Translations under genes and position numbers: made by a program
NCBI RefSeq assembly: GCF_008642295.1
Contig: NZ_CP029190.1
Location: forward strand, 1,302,001-1,366,000
Reading direction: 5' to 3'
DNA: 64,000 nt
Source: Streptomyces venezuelae
Lineage (GTDB): Bacteria; Actinomycetota; Actinomycetes; Streptomycetales; Streptomycetaceae
Notes under the pieces: generated by a model
What the model was told of the DNA's origin: nothing
The model's database searches: none
What the model saw: the letters and a program-made list of their open reading frames with translations, nothing else
In this document: piece after piece, positions 11,893 through 21,576 of the stretch
Position numbering within the stretch: position 1 is the stretch's first letter
How the letters are laid out: the number at the start of each line of letters is the position of its first letter

Positions 11893-12411
11893 CTACGGGG
11901 CGTGGAGCTGCTCGGCGAAGGCCGCGTAGGCACGGTCGTCGAAGAGGACGAACCGGACCTCTTCCACGGGGGCCAGGGCCGCCGTGCGGGCGGTCTCCAC
12001 CGCGATACGGGCGCCGTCGTCCATCGGCCAGCCGTAGATTCCGGTGGAGATGGCCGGGAAGGCCACCGTACGGGCGCCCAGCTCGGCGGCGATCCGCAGC
12101 GACTCGCGGTAGCAGGAGGCCAGCAGCGCCGAGCGGTCCTCCTCGCGCGACCAGACCGGGCCGACCGTATGGATCACATGCTCGGCGGAGAGCCGGCCGG
12201 CGGTGGTGGCGACGGCCTGGCCGGTGGCGAGGCCCTTGCCGTAGTGGGAGGCGCGCAGGGCCCGGCAGGCGGCCAGGATCTCGGGGCCGCCGCGGCGGTG
12301 GATGGCGCCGTCGACCCCTCCGCCGCCGAGGAGGGAGGAGTTGGCGGCGTTGACGATCGCGTCGGCCGTCTCGGCCGTGATGTCGCCCTGGACCAGGGTG
12401 ATGCGCACCAT
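11893..12411 (-). CDS. Macro-domain O-acetyl-ADP-ribose deacetylase-like protein
   Basis: 172 residues forming a single MacroD-type macro domain, which binds ADP-ribose and typically removes acetyl groups from O-acetyl-ADP-ribose or mono-ADP-ribose from proteins. Diagnostic segments are VQGDITAETADAIVNAANSS, the loop LLGGGGVDGAIHRRGG and FPAISTGIYGWPMDDGARI. The catalytic Asn/Asp/GGVD region is intact. ATG 12411 lies just five bases after the stop of the FAD oxidoreductase, so the two are one operon (oxidoreductase first). The strong terminator at 11843-11882 ends the transcript. Coupling of an ADP-ribose hydrolase to a desaturase-like flavoprotein is not obvious biochemically. Confidence 0.93.
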   Translation of the reverse strand: MVRITLVQGDITAETADAIVNAANSSLLGGGGVDGAIHRRGGPEILAACRALRASHYGKGLATGQAVATTAGRLSAEHVIHTVGPVWSREEDRSALLASCYRESLRIAAELGARTVAFPAISTGIYGWPMDDGARIAVETARTAALAPVEEVRFVLFDDRAYAAFAEQLHAP

Positions 12412-13926: not shown

Positions 13927-14763
13927 TTACCGGTCGCCGCGGAGCAGACCCCTGATCCGCGCCACGGTGGGCTCGTCTCGGGCGACGACGAACGGCAGGG
14001 CGTTGTCCCGGTCGATGCGGAACGGCTCGTCCGCCACCGTGCTCTGGGCTCCGCCCGCCTCGGCCACGAGCAGCAGACCGGCCGCGTGGTCCCAGGCCGA
14101 GGGCCAGTTGAAGGCGAGGGCGTCCATTTCGCCGCGGGCCACCTTCAGGTACTCCAGGCCGGCCGATCCGCAGGGCCGGGGGGCGACACCGGGGACATCC
14201 AGCCGGGCCAGGATTCTTTTGTCATGTTCGCTGGTGTAGAGCGGGTGCGCGGTGGCCACCCGCAGCTCGGCGCCGGGCTCCGGGGAGCCGCTGCGGATGG
14301 TCTCGCCGTCGACCTGGGCACCCTGGCCGCGGACGGCGGTGGCGAGGGTCTCCAGGGCGGGGGCGTAGGTCCAGGAGGCGTGGATCTCGCCGTGCAGGGC
14401 CAGGGCGACGAGGGTGCAGAAGGCGGCTTCGCCGTTGACGAACTGCCGGGTGCCGTCGACCGGGTCGACGATCCAGACGGGCGCGTCGCCGCGGAGCGCC
14501 CCGTACACGGTGGGGTCGGCGTGCACGGCCTCCTCGCCGACCACCACCGAGCCGGGCAGCAGCTTGGTGAGGGAGGCGGTGAGGTGCTCCTCGGCCATCC
14601 GGTCGGCGACCGTCACCAGGTCGTGCGGGCCGCTCTTCTGGTCGACCTCGTGCTCGGCGAGCTGCCGGAACCTCGGCATGATCTCGACTGCTGCGGCCTT
14701 GCGGACGGCCTCTTCGACATCGGGGAGGCGGCGTGCCAGAAACTCATCGATCATGCGGTCCAT
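13927..14763 (-). CDS. Inositol monophosphatase family protein
   Basis: 278-residue Mg-dependent phosphatase of the IMPase/CysQ/HisN group. The metal and substrate motifs are present: [24 protein letters not shown] (GEE), [18 protein letters not shown] and, near the end, [19 protein letters not shown]. Substrate could be inositol phosphate, histidinol phosphate or PAP; actinobacteria use this fold for HisN as well. The start is uncertain: ATG 14763 and ATG 14754 both lack a good ribosome site, and a TTG at 14784 has GGTGGGGA immediately beside it, too close to be useful. The gene is single, separated from the CrtI-like gene by 88 bp. Confidence 0.88.
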
Positions 14764-15108: not shown

Positions 15109-16365
15109 TCAGGTCCCGCCGGTGAGGGCACGCCCACGGGGGTGGAGTGCCCTCACCGGCGCCGGCGCGAGCGCCCGGGAGATCGACACCAGGAGATCGC
15201 GGTCCGCCGCCTCCGCGGCACGCACCGCGGCCACCGCGAGGGCGCCCTGCTCCGTCGACTCCGCCGCCGGTGGCGAGGTACGGGCCCGCGCCTCCGCCGC
15301 CGCCGTGAACATGGCGGCGAGGCCGGCGGCCACCGCCTCGCGCTCCGCGACCCCGCCCTCCTTCGCCTGCCGGTAGCCCGCCTCACGCGCCTCGTCGGTG
15401 CAGTGGACGCACAGCGAGAGCATCCAGTCGTGGATGGTGGTCATCCGGTAGAGGAGGGCCTGCTCGGGTCCGGCGTACCACGGCGGGGGGAGGAACATCC
15501 TGCTGCCGGGGGTCAGCCCGGACCGGGTGACCAGACGCCACAGGGGCCGCAGGGCCCTGATGCCGAGCAGGGGGTGCCACACCCGGTCGATCAGCGCGGG
15601 CCCGTACGCCGGTACGAGGAGCCCGACCCCGATCATCATCCCGCTGGCCGACATGAAGGGCGACAGGCTGTTGTTGAGCACGTCCCAGTCCCGGCCGGCC
15701 CAACGGGCGGCGATGGCGGTCAGCTTGAACAAGCCGAAGACGATGTTGGCCAGGGCGGCGACCACCAGCACGAGCAGCCCGATCTGCAGGGGCCGGTCGA
15801 CCGAGGTCTTGGTCTCCTGCCGCGCCGTCCGCCTTCCGACGTCGAGAAGCCAGCTCCAGCAGACGACGGTGGTGGCCACCCCGGCCGCGATGTACCCGAG
15901 CAGATAGAGCACCAGCATTTCGCTGATGAACGGGGTGGCGGCGTAGTACGTGTCGAAGTCCCGCGGACGCTCCACCGGGACATCGCCCAGCGCGAACAGC
16001 CCCACCAGGGCGGCGATCACCACGCAGCAGCCGGTCTTCCACACCCGTACGCGTCGGCGCGTACGGGGACAGTCCGCCGACTCCGCCCGCCAGTAGTCCA
16101 GCAGCACCAGGGACGCACACGCATAGGCGGTCATGATGCAGTGGACGAGGAGGGCCGAGAGGTTGCTGATGCCGGTGAGCCGGTTGACGGCGGTGACGGT
16201 CGGCGGGGAGGAGAGGATGAAGCCTGCGCAGGGCAGGAGCAGCAGGGCGTTCACCGTACGGACCGTCGCGCTGCGCCACCCGCGCACCAGGGCCGGCAGC
16301 TTCGCCAGCAGGGCCGCGCCCAGGACGGCGGCGGGCACGTAGTAGTCGGCGCCTTCGTGTATCAC
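15109..16365 (-). CDS. MAB_1171c-type seven-TM membrane protein
   Basis: 418 residues. The N-terminal 230 hold about seven hydrophobic segments: VPAAVLGAALLAKLPALV, NALLLLPCAGFILSS, LLVHCIMTAYACASLVLL, CCVVIAALVGLFALG, MLVLYLLGYIAAGVATTVV, IGLLVLVVAALANIVFGLF and a glycine-rich seventh near 270. The remaining 150 are soluble (ALRPLWRLVTRSGLTPG then an alanine-rich helical tail). It resembles the putative transporter family MAB_1171c with a C-terminal DUF6545-like domain; transport is not shown. The GTG start overlaps the peptidase stop (GTGA), so it is translationally coupled. Third gene of the XRE-peptidase-membrane cassette. A receptor or sensor role is as plausible as transport. Confidence 0.8.
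   Translation of the reverse strand: MIHEGADYYVPAAVLGAALLAKLPALVRGWRSATVRTVNALLLLPCAGFILSSPPTVTAVNRLTGISNLSALLVHCIMTAYACASLVLLDYWRAESADCPRTRRRVRVWKTGCCVVIAALVGLFALGDVPVERPRDFDTYYAATPFISEMLVLYLLGYIAAGVATTVVCWSWLLDVGRRTARQETKTSVDRPLQIGLLVLVVAALANIVFGLFKLTAIAARWAGRDWDVLNNSLSPFMSASGMMIGVGLLVPAYGPALIDRVWHPLLGIRALRPLWRLVTRSGLTPGSRMFLPPPWYAGPEQALLYRMTTIHDWMLSLCVHCTDEAREAGYRQAKEGGVAEREAVAAGLAAMFTAAAEARARTSPPAAESTEQGALAVAAVRAAEAADRDLLVSISRALAPAPVRALHPRGRALTGGT
15118..15160 (-). terminator. Hairpin at the 3' end of the MAB_1171c-type gene
   Basis: Perfect 13-bp stem (15118-15130 with 15148-15160) and 17-base loop, lying inside the last codons of the membrane-protein gene rather than after it. It is likely the terminator of the three-gene cassette. 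Confidence 0.6.
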
Positions 16366-16847
16366 CGGCCCCCCAGGGACTCCCAGATGCGCCCGTCCCG
16401 CTCGCCGGGGGGCGTGCTGCTGCGGGTGCCGAGCAGGAAGGGCCGGAACTTGGCCCCCAGCAGCCGGCCGAACCGCTCCGCCCGCCGTTCCTCGGCGAGG
16501 TCGTAGTCGGTGCGCGCCGCAACCTGGGCGGCCCCGCCGGAGCGGTCCTCGGCCTCCCTGCGGTGCCACAACTCGTGGCCCAGGATCACCATCTGATGGA
16601 CCGGCAGGGTGTTCTGCTCCACCGCGATCACTTCGTGGTCACCCAGGTCGATCCAGAGCCCGCTGACCGTGCCCGGCGGGAACGGCTCCAGCATCAGACG
16701 GACCTCGCGCCCGCTGCTCGCCGACACGAAGGCGCAGACCGCGTACAGCAGTTCACGCGGTGCCGGTGCGAGCGGGCGCATCACCCCGTCGAACAACTCG
16801 TCCCGGTGGCGCTTCATTTCACGGGATATACGCACCGCGTCCCACAT
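16362..16847 (-). CDS. ImmA/IrrE-like zinc metallopeptidase
   Basis: 161 residues with the zinc motif HELWH at 91-95 (VILGHELWHRREAE) and a downstream helix EERRAERFGRLLGAKF that supplies the third ligand, the layout of ImmA/IrrE peptidases. Such enzymes cleave XRE-type repressors to induce genes (ImmA with ImmR; IrrE with DdrO). It has no TM segment, so it is cytoplasmic. ATG 16847 with GGGGAAG just upstream is preferred over a GTG at 16880. It follows an XRE gene and is coupled to a seven-TM gene, which makes repressor cleavage regulated through the membrane protein an attractive inference. It is often annotated merely as a toxin component. Confidence 0.82.
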   Translation of the reverse strand: MWDAVRISREMKRHRDELFDGVMRPLAPAPRELLYAVCAFVSASSGREVRLMLEPFPPGTVSGLWIDLGDHEVIAVEQNTLPVHQMVILGHELWHRREAEDRSGGAAQVAARTDYDLAEERRAERFGRLLGAKFRPFLLGTRSSTPPGERDGRIWESLGGR

Positions 16848-16987
16848 GTCTTCCCCACCCGGACGCTGTTGCCGGCACACCGCTCATCGAGCCCCCCGAA
16901 CGGATGCACGGCACTCTGTCAGTCGTGCGCCCGCGACAGTAGCCACTCGGGACGGCGGAGGCAACTGCGGTCCAGCACGGGCATCGT

Positions 16988-16999
16988 CCCTGGCCAGGG
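16988..16999. promoter_or_regulatory. Perfect 12-bp palindrome between XRE and peptidase genes
   Basis: CCCTGGCCAGGG lies just after the XRE stop codon in the 157-bp gap before the peptidase start. A loop-free palindrome suits a dimeric regulator such as the adjacent XRE protein better than a terminator. No other repeat of it was noticed upstream of the XRE gene. Confidence 0.4.
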
Positions 17000-17004
17000 G
17001 CCGT

Positions 17005-17754
17005 TTACCGGCTCTCCCGGGCACGTTCCTCGCGCGAGCGCCGGGCAATGGACTCGATGAGGGCGATGATGGGCTGTGCGGTGTCGTCGGGGACGTCGGC
17101 GAGCGCCCGTGCGGCATAGCCGACGACGCCGAGATCGGAACCGGAGGCAGCACCGGAACCGGCAGAACCGACAGAACCGGCAGAGGCCAGGGTGTCTGCG
17201 TTCCTGAGGCGCTGGATGTGCTCGTCCTGGCGCGCCACGGTCCGCTCCAGCAGGTCCTTGTGGATCCGCTGGAGCACCCGGTCCAGGGCCTCGGCGGGCT
17301 CGGCGACCAGGAACTCGATGCTCTCTCCGAAGAAGTCGGCTATCCCGGCCGCGTGATCGAGGTTCGGGGCCTTCCCCGTCTTGATCATCTTGTCGAGCCA
17401 CTGCGCGCTCGTTCCCGCACCGGCCGCGATGTCCGCCAGCGAGTACGCACGCCGCTGGCCGTCGGGGGTGGTCCGCAGCCGGGTACGGCGCAGGAAGACG
17501 ATCCGGGCGACCACCCGGCGGTGGCGCTCTTCCACCGGGTCCACCCGGTCCGCCGCTCCGCCGCCGTTGCCCGGCGCCTGTTGCTGACCGCGCAACAGCG
17601 CGTGTACGTCCTCGACGGGCAGCCCGGAGGCGTACGAGAGGCCGCCCTCGCCCTCCACCCGGAGCAGGTCCTCGCCTTCGAGACCGGCACGTTCGAGCAG
17701 GGACCTGATGCGCCCGGCGGTCCTGACGGGATCCGCGGCGGACCTCTCGCTCAT
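17005..17754 (-). CDS. XRE-type helix-turn-helix regulator of the peptidase/membrane cassette
   Basis: 249 residues. A lambda-repressor-like helix-turn-helix spans about 82-150: VARIVFLRRTRLRTTPDGQR, then SLADIAAGAGTSAQWLDKMI and NLDHAAGIADFFG, with a long inter-helix loop typical of Streptomyces BldD/XRE relatives paired with peptidases. The N-terminal 75 residues are an unusual extension and the C-terminus a helical region (RIHKDLLERTVARQDEHIQR) followed by a Ser/Gly/Ala linker and an end helix. ATG 17754 has a GGGGGAGCAGGA site. It heads the cassette, and is a likely cleavage substrate of the next gene's peptidase by analogy with ImmR and DdrO. Confidence 0.82.
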   Translation of the reverse strand: MSERSAADPVRTAGRIRSLLERAGLEGEDLLRVEGEGGLSYASGLPVEDVHALLRGQQQAPGNGGGAADRVDPVEERHRRVVARIVFLRRTRLRTTPDGQRRAYSLADIAAGAGTSAQWLDKMIKTGKAPNLDHAAGIADFFGESIEFLVAEPAEALDRVLQRIHKDLLERTVARQDEHIQRLRNADTLASAGSVGSAGSGAASGSDLGVVGYAARALADVPDDTAQPIIALIESIARRSREERARESR

Positions 17755-17849
17755 TCCTGCTCCCCCGCTCCATGACTGGGCCGATGCCGAATCAGAGCGT
17801 CAAACACTATCGACTCCGGCTCGGCATCAGCAACCAAAGATGAAAGACA

Positions 17850-18854
17850 TCAGCCCGCATTGACCGCCGGGATGATGCGGGAGCCGTACGCGTCGATGGT
17901 GGCCTCCCTGGCATCGTGCATGTCGTAGACGGCGAACTGGTCGACGCCGAGGTCACGCAGGGCCCGCAGCTTCTCGATATGGGCCTCGGCGGGCCCCAGC
18001 AGGCAGAACCGGTCGACGATCTCGTCCGGCACGAAGTCGGTGGACGGGTTCCCGGCGCGGCCGTGGTGGCTGTAGTCGTAGCCCTGCCGGGCCTTGATGT
18101 ACTCGGTGAGTGCCTCCGGGACCATCGAGGAGTGCTCCCCGTAGCGGCTGACCAGGTCGGCGACATGGTTGCCGACCATGCCGCCGAACCAGCGGCACTG
18201 ATCCCGGGCATGGCCGAGGTCATCGCTCACGTATGCGGGGGCCGCCACGCAGATGGTGATCGCGGCGGGGTCCCGGCCGGCCGCGGCGGCGGCCTCGCGG
18301 ACCGCTTGGACCATCCATTCGGTGAGGTAGAGGTCGGCGAGCTGGAGGATGAATCCGTCGGCCTTCGCCCCGGCGAGGGCGAGGGCCTTCGGCCCGTACG
18401 CGGCCATCCAGACCGGCAGCTTGCCGCCCTTGACCCACGGGATGCGGATCGGGTTGCCGTCCACGGTCGCCTCGCGCCCCTCGGCGAGATCGCGGATGAC
18501 CTCGATGGCCTCGCCCAGCCGGGCCAGGGTGTTGGGCTTGCGGCCGGCCACCCGCATGGCCGAGTCCCCGCGGCCGATCCCGCAGACGGTGCGGTTGCCG
18601 TACATGTCGTTGAGGGTGGCGAAGGTGGAGGCGGTGACCTCCCAGGTGCGGGTGCCCGGGTTGGTCACCATCGGGCCGATGTGCATCTTCTGCGTGTTGG
18701 CGAGGATCTGGCTGTAGATGACGAAGGGTTCCTGCCAGAGCACGGCCGAGTCGAAGGTCCAGCCGTAGCGGAAGCCGTTGCGTTCGGCGCGCTTCATGAG
18801 GCTGACGACCTGGGAGGCCGGCGGGTCGGTCTGGAGGACGAGGCCGAAGTCCAT
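17850..18854 (-). CDS. LLM-class F420-dependent oxidoreductase (TIGR03842-like)
   Basis: 334-residue luciferase-like (alpha/beta) barrel oxidoreductase using F420 or FMN. The N-terminus MDFGLVLQTDPPASQVVSLM, the segment GWTFDSAVLWQEPF, and the cofactor-contact stretch RTVCGIGRGDSAMRVAGRKP match the TIGR03842 branch, whose members sit by hydantoinase genes. The C-terminus LGVDQFAVYDMHDAREATID is also typical. It is the last gene of the leftward operon, 13 bp after the dihydropyrimidinase stop, with AGGAGAG before ATG 18854. Its reaction is unknown. Given the context, oxidation or reduction of a pyrimidine or hydantoin ring is the leading inference; see findings. Confidence 0.9.
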   Translation of the reverse strand: MDFGLVLQTDPPASQVVSLMKRAERNGFRYGWTFDSAVLWQEPFVIYSQILANTQKMHIGPMVTNPGTRTWEVTASTFATLNDMYGNRTVCGIGRGDSAMRVAGRKPNTLARLGEAIEVIRDLAEGREATVDGNPIRIPWVKGGKLPVWMAAYGPKALALAGAKADGFILQLADLYLTEWMVQAVREAAAAAGRDPAAITICVAAPAYVSDDLGHARDQCRWFGGMVGNHVADLVSRYGEHSSMVPEALTEYIKARQGYDYSHHGRAGNPSTDFVPDEIVDRFCLLGPAEAHIEKLRALRDLGVDQFAVYDMHDAREATIDAYGSRIIPAVNAG

Positions 18855-18867
18855 GCGGGGACTCTCC

Positions 18868-20268
18868 TTACAGGTACTGGCAGGTGGAGCGGTGGACGAA
18901 GGCCCCGTGTCCGGCCCGGCCGGTGTACTCGCGCCGGTCGATGACCAGCTCGCCGCGCGAGAGGACGGTGTCGACCCGCCCGGTGATCCGCTTGCCCTCG
19001 TACGCCGAGTAGTCCACGTTCATGTGGTGGGTCTCGGCGGAGATGACCTGCTCGGCGTGCGGATCGTAGAGGACGATGTCGGCGTCCGAGCCGGGGGCGA
19101 TGGTGCCCTTCTGCGGGTACATGCCGAACATCCGGGCCGGGGTCGCGCAGGCGATCTCGATCCAGCGGCGGCGGCTGATGTGCCCGTCCAGGACCGCCTG
19201 ATGGAGGAGGTCCATCCGGTTCTCCACCCCCGGAAGCCCGTTGGGGATCTTCGAGAAGTCGCCCCGGCCGAGTTCCTTCTGGCCGCGGAAGCAGAACGGG
19301 CAGTGGTCGGTGGAGACCACCTGGAGGTCGTTGGTGCGCAGGCCGCGCCAGAGGGCCGCCTGGTGCTCCCTGGGGCGCAGCGGCGTGGAGCAGACGTACT
19401 TGGCGCCCTGGAAGTCGGGCTCGGCGAGGTTGTCGGTGGAGAGGAAGAGGTATTGGGGGCAGGTCTCGCCGAAGACGGGCAGCCCCTTGTCCCGGGCCGC
19501 GGCGAGCTCGGCGACGGCCTCCTCGGCCGAGACATGGACCACGTACAGCGGGGAGCCGGCCACCCGGGCCAGTTGGATGGCCCGGTGGGTGGCCTCGGCC
19601 TCCAGCAGCACCTTGCGGACCTCGCCGTGGTGGCGCGGGTCGGTCTCGCCGCGCGCCAGGGCCTGTTCCACCAGGACGTCGATGGCGATGCCGTTCTCGG
19701 CGTGCATCATGATCAGCCCGCCGTTGGCGGCGCCGCGCTGCATCGCGCGCAGGATCTGTCCGTCGTCGCTGTAGAACACCCCGGGGTAGGCCATGAACAG
19801 CTTGAAGGAGCTGATGCCCTCCTCCACCAGGAGGTCCATCTCCTTGAGGGTGTGCTCGTTGACGTCGGAGAGGATCATGTGGAAGCCGTAGTCGATGGCG
19901 CAGTTGCCGTCGGCTTTGGCGTACCAGGCGTCGAGGCCCTCGCGGAGCGAGTGGCCGACGCTCTGGACGGCGAAGTCCACGATGGTGGTGGTGCCGCCCC
20001 AGGCGGCGGCCCGGGTGCCGGTCTCGAAGGTGTCGGAGGCGAAGGTGCCGCCGAAGGGCAGTTCCATGTGGGTGTGGGCGTCGACGCCGCCCGGGATGAC
20101 GTACTTCCCGGTCGCATCGATCGTACGGTCGGCCGTCCAGGCCCCGGCGGCTGCGGAGCCGTGGGCGGCCAGGGCGGCCACCCGGCCGTCCTCGACGAGG
20201 ACGTCCGCGTGGAGTTCGTCGGCGGCGGTGATGACCAGGCCGCCGCGGATCAGGGTGCGGATGCTCAT
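18868..20268 (-). CDS. hydA: Dihydropyrimidinase / D-hydantoinase
   Basis: 466-residue binuclear zinc amidohydrolase opening 5,6-dihydrouracil or hydantoin rings. All metal ligands are visible: DAHTHMELPFGG with His65 and His67, carboxylated Lys156 in SSFKLFMAYPG, His189 in LIMMHAENG, His245 in VVHVSAEEA and Asp321 in STDHCPF. The substrate segment CPQYLFLS is present. It is third in nitrilase-aminotransferase-dihydropyrimidinase-LLM. The nitrilase would then act on N-carbamoyl-beta-alanine, and the aminotransferase on beta-alanine. No deviation from the family is seen. Confidence 0.96.
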   Translation of the reverse strand: MSIRTLIRGGLVITAADELHADVLVEDGRVAALAAHGSAAAGAWTADRTIDATGKYVIPGGVDAHTHMELPFGGTFASDTFETGTRAAAWGGTTTIVDFAVQSVGHSLREGLDAWYAKADGNCAIDYGFHMILSDVNEHTLKEMDLLVEEGISSFKLFMAYPGVFYSDDGQILRAMQRGAANGGLIMMHAENGIAIDVLVEQALARGETDPRHHGEVRKVLLEAEATHRAIQLARVAGSPLYVVHVSAEEAVAELAAARDKGLPVFGETCPQYLFLSTDNLAEPDFQGAKYVCSTPLRPREHQAALWRGLRTNDLQVVSTDHCPFCFRGQKELGRGDFSKIPNGLPGVENRMDLLHQAVLDGHISRRRWIEIACATPARMFGMYPQKGTIAPGSDADIVLYDPHAEQVISAETHHMNVDYSAYEGKRITGRVDTVLSRGELVIDRREYTGRAGHGAFVHRSTCQYL

Positions 20269-20280
20269 GGTGCGGTCCCC

Positions 20281-21576
20281 CTACTGGATGGCGCCCAGGG
20301 CCTGTTCGAGGATGGCTGCGCCCTCTTCCGCCTCGGTGACGGTGAGGGAGAGCGGAGGCGCGATGCGCAGCACGCTGGTGTTGTGGCCGCCGCCCTTGCC
20401 GAGCAGCAGGCCGCCTTCGCGGGCCGCTTCGAGGACGGCGCCGGCCGCGTCGGGGGCGGCCTGGTCGGTGCCCGGCCGGGTGAGTTCGATGCCGGCCATC
20501 AGGCCGCGGCCCCGGACATCGCGGACGGCGGGCACGGCGGCGCCGATGGCGCGCAGCCGCTCCAGGAGCAGGCCGCCGACCCGGCGGGCGTTGCCCTGGA
20601 GGTCGTGTTCGAGGAGGTAGCCGAGGTTGGCGAGGCCGGCCGCCATGGTGACGGGTGAACCGCCGAAGGTGGAGATGGAGTTGGCGTCCAGGCAGTTCAT
20701 GATCTCGGCGCGGGCGACGACCCCGCCGATGGACATGCCGTTGCCGATGCCCTTGGCGAAGGTGAGGATGTCCGGCGGGCCGTTCTGGGCGTGCGCCTGC
20801 CAGCCCCAGAAGTGGTCGCCGGTGCGGCCCCAGCCGGTCTGCACCTCGTCGCTGATCCAGAGGATGCCGTGCCGGTCGAGGACCTCGCGGAAGGCCCCGT
20901 ACAGGCCGTCGGGCGGGGAGGTGAACCCGCCGACGCCCTGGATGGGTTCGGCGATCAGGGCGGCCACTCCCCCGCGGGCCTGGCCGAGTACGTCCTCCAG
21001 ATCGGCGACGGCCGCGGCGGTGAAGGCGGTGTCGTCGAGGTCGGCGAAGGGGCCGCGGCTGCGGACGGCGCCGTGCACGTAGTACGTCTGGAGGGGCGAC
21101 AGGCTGGTCGGGGACCAGCCGCGGTTGCCGGTGATCGAGACGGTGGAGAAGGACCGGCCGTGGTAGCTGTTGCGCATCGCCAGGATCTGGTTGGAGCGGC
21201 GGTACGCGGTGGCCAGGAGCAGGGCGGTGTCGTTGGCCTCGGTGCCGGAGGTGGTGAAGAAGACCCGGGCGTCGGGGATGCCGGAGAGGGCCGCGACGCG
21301 TTCGGCGAGTTCCACCATGGGGCGGTTGAGGTAGAGGGTGGAGGAGTGGATGATCCGCCCGGCCTGGTCGGCGACGGCCTTGGTGACCTCGGGGAGGGCG
21401 TGGGCGGTCATGGTGGTGAGGATGCCGCCGAAGAAGTCCAGGTAGCGGTTGCCTTCGGCGTCCCAGACGTGCCGGCCCTCGCCGTGGGTGAGCTCGATGG
21501 GGTGCCGGTAGTAGAGGGCCAGCCAGTCGGGGAGGACGTTTTGGTGCCGGTGGTGCAGGCTGTTCGGGTCGGTCAC
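20281..21576 (-). CDS. Class III omega-aminotransferase (beta-alanine/GABA type)
   Basis: 431-residue PLP enzyme moving an amino group from a terminal amine such as beta-alanine to pyruvate or 2-oxoglutarate. Class III landmarks: TTSGTEANDTALLLATAYRR, NSYHGRSFSTVSITG, ISDEVQTGWGRTGDHFWGWQ, and Lys275 in LTFAKGIGNG as the Schiff-base residue. GTG 21576 overlaps the nitrilase stop (GTGA). In this operon it most likely takes beta-alanine (from uracil) or 3-aminoisobutyrate (from thymine) to a semialdehyde. Similar sequences are labelled AGT2-like/aspartate aminotransferase family. No dehydrogenase for the resulting semialdehyde is in the window. Confidence 0.95.
   Translation of the reverse strand: MTDPNSLHHRHQNVLPDWLALYYRHPIELTHGEGRHVWDAEGNRYLDFFGGILTTMTAHALPEVTKAVADQAGRIIHSSTLYLNRPMVELAERVAALSGIPDARVFFTTSGTEANDTALLLATAYRRSNQILAMRNSYHGRSFSTVSITGNRGWSPTSLSPLQTYYVHGAVRSRGPFADLDDTAFTAAAVADLEDVLGQARGGVAALIAEPIQGVGGFTSPPDGLYGAFREVLDRHGILWISDEVQTGWGRTGDHFWGWQAHAQNGPPDILTFAKGIGNGMSIGGVVARAEIMNCLDANSISTFGGSPVTMAAGLANLGYLLEHDLQGNARRVGGLLLERLRAIGAAVPAVRDVRGRGLMAGIELTRPGTDQAAPDAAGAVLEAAREGGLLLGKGGGHNTSVLRIAPPLSLTVTEAEEGAAILEQALGAIQ

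Follow-up and report, generated by a model that had tools for sequence, protein, structure and literature searches.

Why would a DNA-binding regulator be encoded together with a small zinc-peptidase-like protein and a seven-transmembrane (seven-TM) protein, and what could the three do for one another? The question is raised by a cassette in a stretch of 64,000 nucleotides of Streptomyces venezuelae (contig NZ_CP029190.1, positions 1,302,001 to 1,366,000), hereafter the window, by whose own numbering its features are located. The cassette represents a module that recurs in many actinobacteria. Its helix-turn-helix (HTH) regulator, of the XRE type, is EspR-like by profile comparison; the conserved unit is real and in part as proposed by a first-pass annotation of the window, and its family is wider. 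We lean, if by a modest measure, toward the cassette being a membrane-to-DNA signaling unit in which the peptidase acts on the EspR-type XRE and the TM protein controls the peptidase.

The cassette and its recurrence in actinobacteria

As first annotated, three consecutive genes share one strand, the minus strand in each case, and the last two overlap by GTGA:

17005..17754, minus strand: XRE/EspR-type regulator, 249 amino acids (hhalign to the EspR-type XRE alignment, A4: probability 96.9, E 1.6e-10)
16362..16847, minus strand: HExxH zinc-peptidase-like protein, 161 amino acids (H91, E92, H95, E120)
15109..16365, minus strand: seven-TM protein, 418 amino acids, predicted N-out/C-in with a cytosolic DUF6545 tail
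16362..16365, minus strand: GTGA start/stop overlap of the peptidase and TM genes

Peptidases of the M78 type carry an HExxH motif and a downstream glutamate ligand in an E..A[NDE].F-like setting. The window peptidase has this arrangement, with HELWH at residues 91-95 and, in the third-ligand helix that the annotation had also pointed out, E120 as the probable third ligand. None of the residues H91, E92, H95 and E120 varies among 42 aligned relatives, nor do their equivalents among 34 wider ones. Its preferred start is the ATG at 16847, behind GGTGGGGAAGAC, with the GTG at 16880 as a possible alternative. Both the window protein and its near relative P0148 are without a segment of 20-40 residues that occurs between HELWH and the third-ligand helix in most aligned relatives, and both keep all ligands.

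The description of the third protein as a seven-TM protein with a soluble C-terminal domain also stands: hydropathy averaged over 36 relatives gives seven hydrophobic peaks, and K+R counts in the loops predict an N-out/C-in topology with a cytosolic tail of ~160 residues. It scores 32 bits against DUF6545 (PF20182, cut-off 24.4) and, over its full length, 89.1 bits against the NCBI family MAB_1171c_fam (NF042915), below the cut-off of 100. One outward loop is highly conserved among the 36 nearest relatives. The window's own genome, a single 7.5-Mb contig, holds seven DUF6545 genes. None of the three cassette proteins matched a PADLOC anti-phage defense model at E ≤ 0.01.

We scanned 101 genomes of the Streptomyces genus with profiles of the three proteins, the regulator being represented by an alignment of window-type XREs (A2). 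The peptidase was matched in 75 genomes, an A2-type XRE in 49 and the TM protein in 68, and the matches listed comprise 149 peptidase places (counted after merging two pieces of the window's own peptidase) and 150 TM places. Among the peptidases listed, one lies directly downstream of 65 of the 79 A2-type XRE matches, and six of the 14 remaining XREs are the other half of tandem XRE genes. A TM gene follows within 600 nt in 93 of the 149 listed peptidases; 35 of these 149 have both neighbors, 58 only the TM gene, 30 only the XRE and 26, mostly low-scoring, neither.

Beyond the genus, a class-wide scan of 246 genomes found DUF6545 at E ≤ 0.001 in 44 genomes and above its cut-off in 42, spread over 20 of 103 genera. 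The neighborhoods of the listed matches, the window's own left out, amount to 72 stretches, two of which (L247, L248) have no TM match with our own profile. In the other 70 loci, searched with profiles iterated on these same loci, 77 TM matches have a peptidase directly upstream in 62 cases (6-194 nt between profile ends) and an XRE within 2.5 kb in 49 (47 at 50 bits or more), with both present in 41. Among the 15 TM matches lacking a directly upstream peptidase, those in L177, L179 and L207 have one a gene away, on either side, and those in L219 and L230 have it behind a tandem TM copy, whereas no peptidase was found in the neighborhoods L205, L214, L223, L229 and L242. The conserved co-occurrence of the three genes that the first-pass annotation had anticipated is thus seen in both surveys (62/77 for TM and peptidase, 65/79 for XRE and peptidase). 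Variants occur: gene order is TM-XRE-peptidase rather than XRE-peptidase-TM in L177 and in L179 (the window's own genome, C1:6598780-6609211), and L178 (also that genome, C1:1053123-1063557) has XRE and TM genes with no peptidase found. Apparently broken cassette genes, with pieces in different frames, occur in L038 and L047/L234, a sign of decay.

An oxidoreductase-type gene for a flavin adenine dinucleotide (FAD) enzyme of ~460 amino acids adjoins the TM gene in 21 of the 70 loci, all in the window's genus; three examples that were scanned match FAD_binding_3, and the window cassette is without such a gene. The product could be the maker of a ligand.

L206 5447-6886 and L228 3542-4933: FAD-type oxidoreductase examples, with 19 further loci

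EspR kinship and the constraint on its C-terminal half

EspR, a much-studied regulator, offers the closest comparison for the XRE. In the window protein an EspR-like HTH (residues ~102-147) is followed by a variable Gly/Ala/Ser-rich linker, typical of the window-type XREs, and by a conserved C-terminal domain (~208-245) that contains the loop AARA at residues 214-217; by our own reading of the alignment, the N-terminus appears to hold a second, degenerate HTH-like stretch (GGLSYASGLPVEDVHALLRG, ~residues 34-56). DUF6545-linked XREs of other families match EspR structures at E 2.8e-46 with an alignment in which one row is espR itself, and 17 of them without espR still find these structures at E ~3e-37, one row (L193) being a non-espR paralogue from the espR genus. 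For the DUF6545-linked XREs of other actinobacteria a single profile match spans both the EspR-like HTH and the C-terminal dimerization domain. The window XRE reaches A4 by profile-profile comparison only, over 101 columns that cover the HTH and the C-terminal domain, and A2 alone finds no Protein Data Bank (PDB) match at E ≤ 0.1. Neither DdrO nor ImmR is among the eight PDB sequences matched by DUF6545-linked XREs, whose closest solved relatives, as judged from these profile matches, are the EspR structures.

The first-pass annotation had made its proposal depend on a conserved XRE segment that could fit the peptidase site, and such a segment is found in the A-x-R-A/T loop of the C-terminal domain. 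AxRA precedes LP, VP or LS in 93 of 97 long XREs (195-260 amino acids) of the wider family, and within A2 A214 is invariant and A215, R216 and A217 are each conserved in at least 90%. That the motif is conserved only for the peptidase is refuted within Streptomyces, where six XREs without an adjacent peptidase retain it. Tandem duplications of the XRE module in one frame (~350-490 amino acids), 5' of the peptidase, occur in L207 (1124-2038), G083, G046, G074, G012, G054 and G071.

The peptidase and membrane genes adjoin espR itself. In L241, L244 and L246, which are among the DUF6545 loci, espR is convergent with the TM and peptidase genes, and since a search with L241's espR finds EspR structures at E 1e-67 we take the espR genus to be Mycobacterium. 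Across 98 genomes of that genus espR is matched in 97 and the peptidase in 65, and 53 genomes contain 56 convergent espR-peptidase pairs, 1.1-2.7 kb apart, so that roughly one in two of the EspR-bearing relatives searched has the peptidase and membrane genes next to espR. The 54 strongest peptidase matches all adjoin espR; further peptidases form 20 tandem pairs with an EspR-like XRE and two pairs a few kilobases apart, and 4 of 82 have no EspR-like XRE nearby. The TM gene lies between espR and the peptidase in the 29 with-pair loci examined. In pair-less loci espR is followed, after 72-207 nt, by the same-strand gene dn218 (41 of 41 examined), which in L241 lies beyond the TM/peptidase pair.

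These two states allow EspR to be compared with and without its neighbors. From 94 espR loci (51 with the pair, 43 without) we obtained 88 usable genes (48 and 40) and 47 and 40 distinct proteins; left out were six loci with an espR piece below 118 codons and one identical row, and the espR fragments G343, G356 and G400 and a second G351 copy lie outside the sample. Mean pairwise amino-acid difference is similar for residues 10-29 (0.038 with the pair, 0.024 without) and for the HTH, residues 30-80 (0.059 and 0.052), but falls from 0.183 without the pair to 0.039 with it in residues 81-97 and from 0.355 to 0.173 in residues 98-137. Fourfold third-base difference is higher with the pair (0.536 vs. 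0.413), as is the protein difference of the upstream neighbor (0.347 over 22 rows vs. 0.268 over 28 rows; 0.329 vs. 0.262, in the same direction, minus one outlier per side, L348 and L295), and the with-pair class is therefore not the younger one. The effect was smaller with all fetched with-pair loci than with the best-scoring ones only, and still stood. Together, these data show that the C-terminal half of EspR is constrained when the pair is present, with the HTH equal in both classes.

At single-residue level, ten EspR sites (77, 97, 99, 102, 109-113, 117) are near-invariant in with-pair genes but vary in pair-less ones, and none shows the reverse. Site 109 is A in 47 of 48 with-pair genes vs. 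2 of 40 pair-less ones, and site 111 is T in 47 of 48 vs. 4 of 40. In L284, the most recent-looking loss, only sites 109 and 111 of these ten deviate from the with-pair consensus, and the solved EspR has Q at 109 and A at 111, like the pair-less class.

Proposed mechanism and competing readings

We infer a proteolytic route; the cut itself, its position, the way in which the membrane protein exerts control and the signal all belong to this proposal. The EspR-type XRE would dimerize via its C-terminal domain and bind DNA. The small, cytosolic IrrE/ImmA-style HExxH peptidase probably acts on this dimerization domain, under control of the membrane protein, and the likeliest target would be the A-x-R-A/T loop (AARA 214-217 in the window XRE). 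A cut regulator would no longer dimerize and its hold on DNA targets would be lost or changed, such that XRE action on DNA might be altered rather than abolished. The seven-TM protein, whose predicted topology resembles that of a sensor and whose gene is closely coupled to the peptidase gene, would sense something outside or in the membrane and hold or release the peptidase by controlling its access. Precedents come from two sides: according to PMC8072749, cleavage of DdrO by IrrE falls between Leu106 and Arg107, within a loop of its C-terminal domain, and abolishes dimerization and DNA binding, and according to PMC3315491, EspR minus its 10 C-terminal residues does not dimerize and activation of espACD is ablated. 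By analogy with DdrO and EspR, the cassette peptidase would cut at or near A-x-R-A/T.

Variation at a single syntenic site bears on the order of action. Among 79 Streptomyces XREs of one group, 43 are in the state XRE-peptidase-TM, 30 in XRE-peptidase (at least one of them, L109, cut by a contig end) and six stand alone, and where all four flanking genes of the site are found the counts are 8, 23 and 4. The three states need nine changes on the XRE tree, which is unrooted as to direction; if the changes are losses, the pattern suggests that components were lost from the membrane end inwards. Such an order would fit the TM protein acting via the peptidase and the peptidase via the XRE, unlike a toxin with its antitoxin.

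Several results weigh against the proposed route. The window peptidase scores 13 bits against Peptidase_M78 (PF06114), below the gathering cut-off of 22, and M78 was matched by 14 of 42 relatives at E ≤ 0.1 (best 1.9e-4) and by 13 of 34 wider relatives at E ≤ 0.01, one of them at 19.4 bits; searches of solved structures in the PDB with the peptidase gave no IrrE match and nothing useful. Of the 149 listed peptidases, 58 have a TM gene and no adjacent A2-type XRE. The TM gene is in turn absent from 30 of the 79 copies described above, where the peptidase persists regardless, and with both genes absent from six more, membrane gating is not universal. Conservation across 71 rows of the wide TM family peaks in the cytosolic tail and TM7 rather than in outward loops; no common ligand site is therefore visible, and a family-wide one in the outward loops was not seen in these rows. 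The six peptidase-less Streptomyces XREs that keep the C-terminal motif imply that it also serves the XRE itself. T111 is specific to the espR genus, the wider family having mostly A there. Changes in pair state number six on the espR HTH-DNA tree (four forced by well-supported branches) and four on the neighbor-gene tree (three forced), so that few independent events stand behind the ten-site pattern and a clade-specific cause is possible. Finally, EspR minus its last 10 residues still binds DNA, according to PMC3315491 as well, and loss of dimerization need not mean release from DNA.

A broader version of the proposed route is possible and more tentative, namely that a receptor pathway is common to actinobacteria: a seven-TM receptor would switch a small zinc peptidase, and this peptidase would cut EspR regulators of the nucleoid type within the dimerization domain. 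The Streptomyces ligand would perhaps come from the adjacent FAD oxidoreductase, and pair-less EspRs would have lost peptidase and receptor, the cut site having drifted since.

Rather unlikely, in our estimate, is a transport or processing unit, in which the TM protein would move a compound, the peptidase would serve to mature either a peptide or the membrane protein, and the XRE would be only a local autoregulator. The TM family carries the name "putative transporter", the FAD-type oxidoreductase genes adjoin it in 21 of 70 loci, and a MAB_1171c mutant lost ~50% of its biofilm mass (PMC8707978); that paper, the only one found to name MAB_1171c, takes the transporter label from annotation and documents an effect on biofilm rather than transport, and the window TM protein has the DUF6545 tail, yet scores below the MAB_1171c_fam cut-off. 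Three profile libraries gave no transporter family above cut-off for the window TM protein, XRE and peptidase are retained without the TM gene in 30 of 79 copies, and the EspR constraint test points to the regulator. Less probable again is a non-proteolytic chaperone or anti-regulator whose peptidase fold would bind the XRE C-terminal domain and block dimerization uncut: it would account for the C-terminal constraint without cleavage, but none of the 42 and none of the 34 relatives deviates in HExxH or in the third-ligand glutamate, which argues for catalysis. Least probable is a toxin-antitoxin (TA) pair with the peptidase as toxin, the XRE as antitoxin and the membrane protein as accessory, despite many peptidase relatives being named "toxin-antitoxin system, toxin component" in databases and COG2856-XRE pairs being predicted as a TA type in PMC2701414, since one site carries XRE alone, XRE with peptidase or all three genes, the 58 listed peptidases noted above adjoin a TM gene and no A2-type XRE, and PMC2701414 itself excludes three XRE-membrane-protein pairs from its TA list. 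The genes are not kept together as in a type II system, an unrecognized antitoxin elsewhere being possible, and the TM-less and XRE-only forms of one site support a regulatory layout over a TA pair, a preference already stated in the annotation.

Noncoding elements, neighbors and known systems

Around the coding regions we consider four noncoding elements:

17829..17836, minus strand: TGGTTGCT element, candidate operator/promoter
17780..17831, no strand: imperfect 18-bp inverted repeat (78%) with a 16-nt spacer, upstream of the XRE start
15117..15161 (about), minus strand: terminator-like hairpin within the final codons of the TM gene, z -4.9
16988..16999, no strand: 12-bp palindrome at chance level and unconserved, excluded from the system

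TGGTTG occurs 47-108 nt upstream of the XRE in 13 of 14 window-type upstream regions, the window included, and is a candidate autoregulation site; the longer TGGTTGC is not family-wide (12 of 133 upstream regions). By eye, TGGTTGCT overlaps a -35-like TTGCTG (17828-17833), with TAGTGT at 17804-17809 after an 18-nt spacer. The near relative L039 has both 8-bp cores of the inverted repeat, each with a single mismatch, and L042 has them with other spacing; as a pair they are not found in the 11 other upstream regions. Upstream of XREs the EspR consensus TTTGC[TC][GA] is no more frequent than in shuffles (0/69 and 6/64 regions), and our impression is that it has a TTGCT core in common with TGGTTGCT. 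A family-wide operator CA[AT]CN4GTTG was likewise set aside (4/69 and 11/64 regions, more than in shuffles yet a minority). CCCTGGCCAGGG, with up to two mismatches, has 34 copies in the window (1-64000) where dinucleotide shuffles predict 15.4, and 0 of 100 shuffles reach as many.

Two elements of the first-pass annotation changed their meaning. The hairpin said to close the gene set exists, but it is formed by the final codons of the TM gene itself. The perfect 12-bp palindrome between the XRE and peptidase genes is there as described, and its role as operator is rejected: the window has 42 such palindromes vs. 46.6 expected from base composition, and this one is kept in 0 of 12 related XRE-peptidase gaps (best 2-5 mismatches).

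Translations read by eye suggest that the same strand 5' of the cassette (17850-21576) likely encodes an LLM-type oxidoreductase, a dihydropyrimidinase and an aminotransferase; an inositol-phosphatase-like gene lies 3' (13927-14763), and a macro-domain-like protein appears to be encoded at 11893-12411.

The module resembles the M78/COG2856 systems IrrE-DdrO of Deinococcus and ImmA-ImmR of ICEBs1 in its pairing of an XRE with a small HExxH...E peptidase and, by analogy to EspR, in a C-terminal XRE dimerization domain that would hold the conserved candidate loop. Unlike IrrE and ImmA, its peptidase scores below the M78 threshold; unlike DdrO and ImmR, its XRE is of the EspR type; and unlike both systems, a DUF6545 seven-TM gene is joined to the peptidase gene. 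To EspR, the ESX-1 regulator and nucleoid-associated protein, it is tied by the match of DUF6545-linked XREs of other families over HTH and dimerization domain and by the pair that adjoins espR itself in 53 of 98 genomes, whereas the window XRE has an apparent extra N-terminal HTH-like stretch and a long linker. No EspR-peptidase link appears in the titles and abstract openings listed for EspR and for M78/XRE/Streptomyces, a partial coverage that leaves room for a published one.

For EspR-type proteins the module thus provides a candidate control step whose site can be named, and for the DUF6545 membrane proteins a sensor role that can be tested. The peptidase/XRE mechanism of Deinococcus and mobile elements would gain a membrane-linked branch, repeated within Streptomyces genomes.

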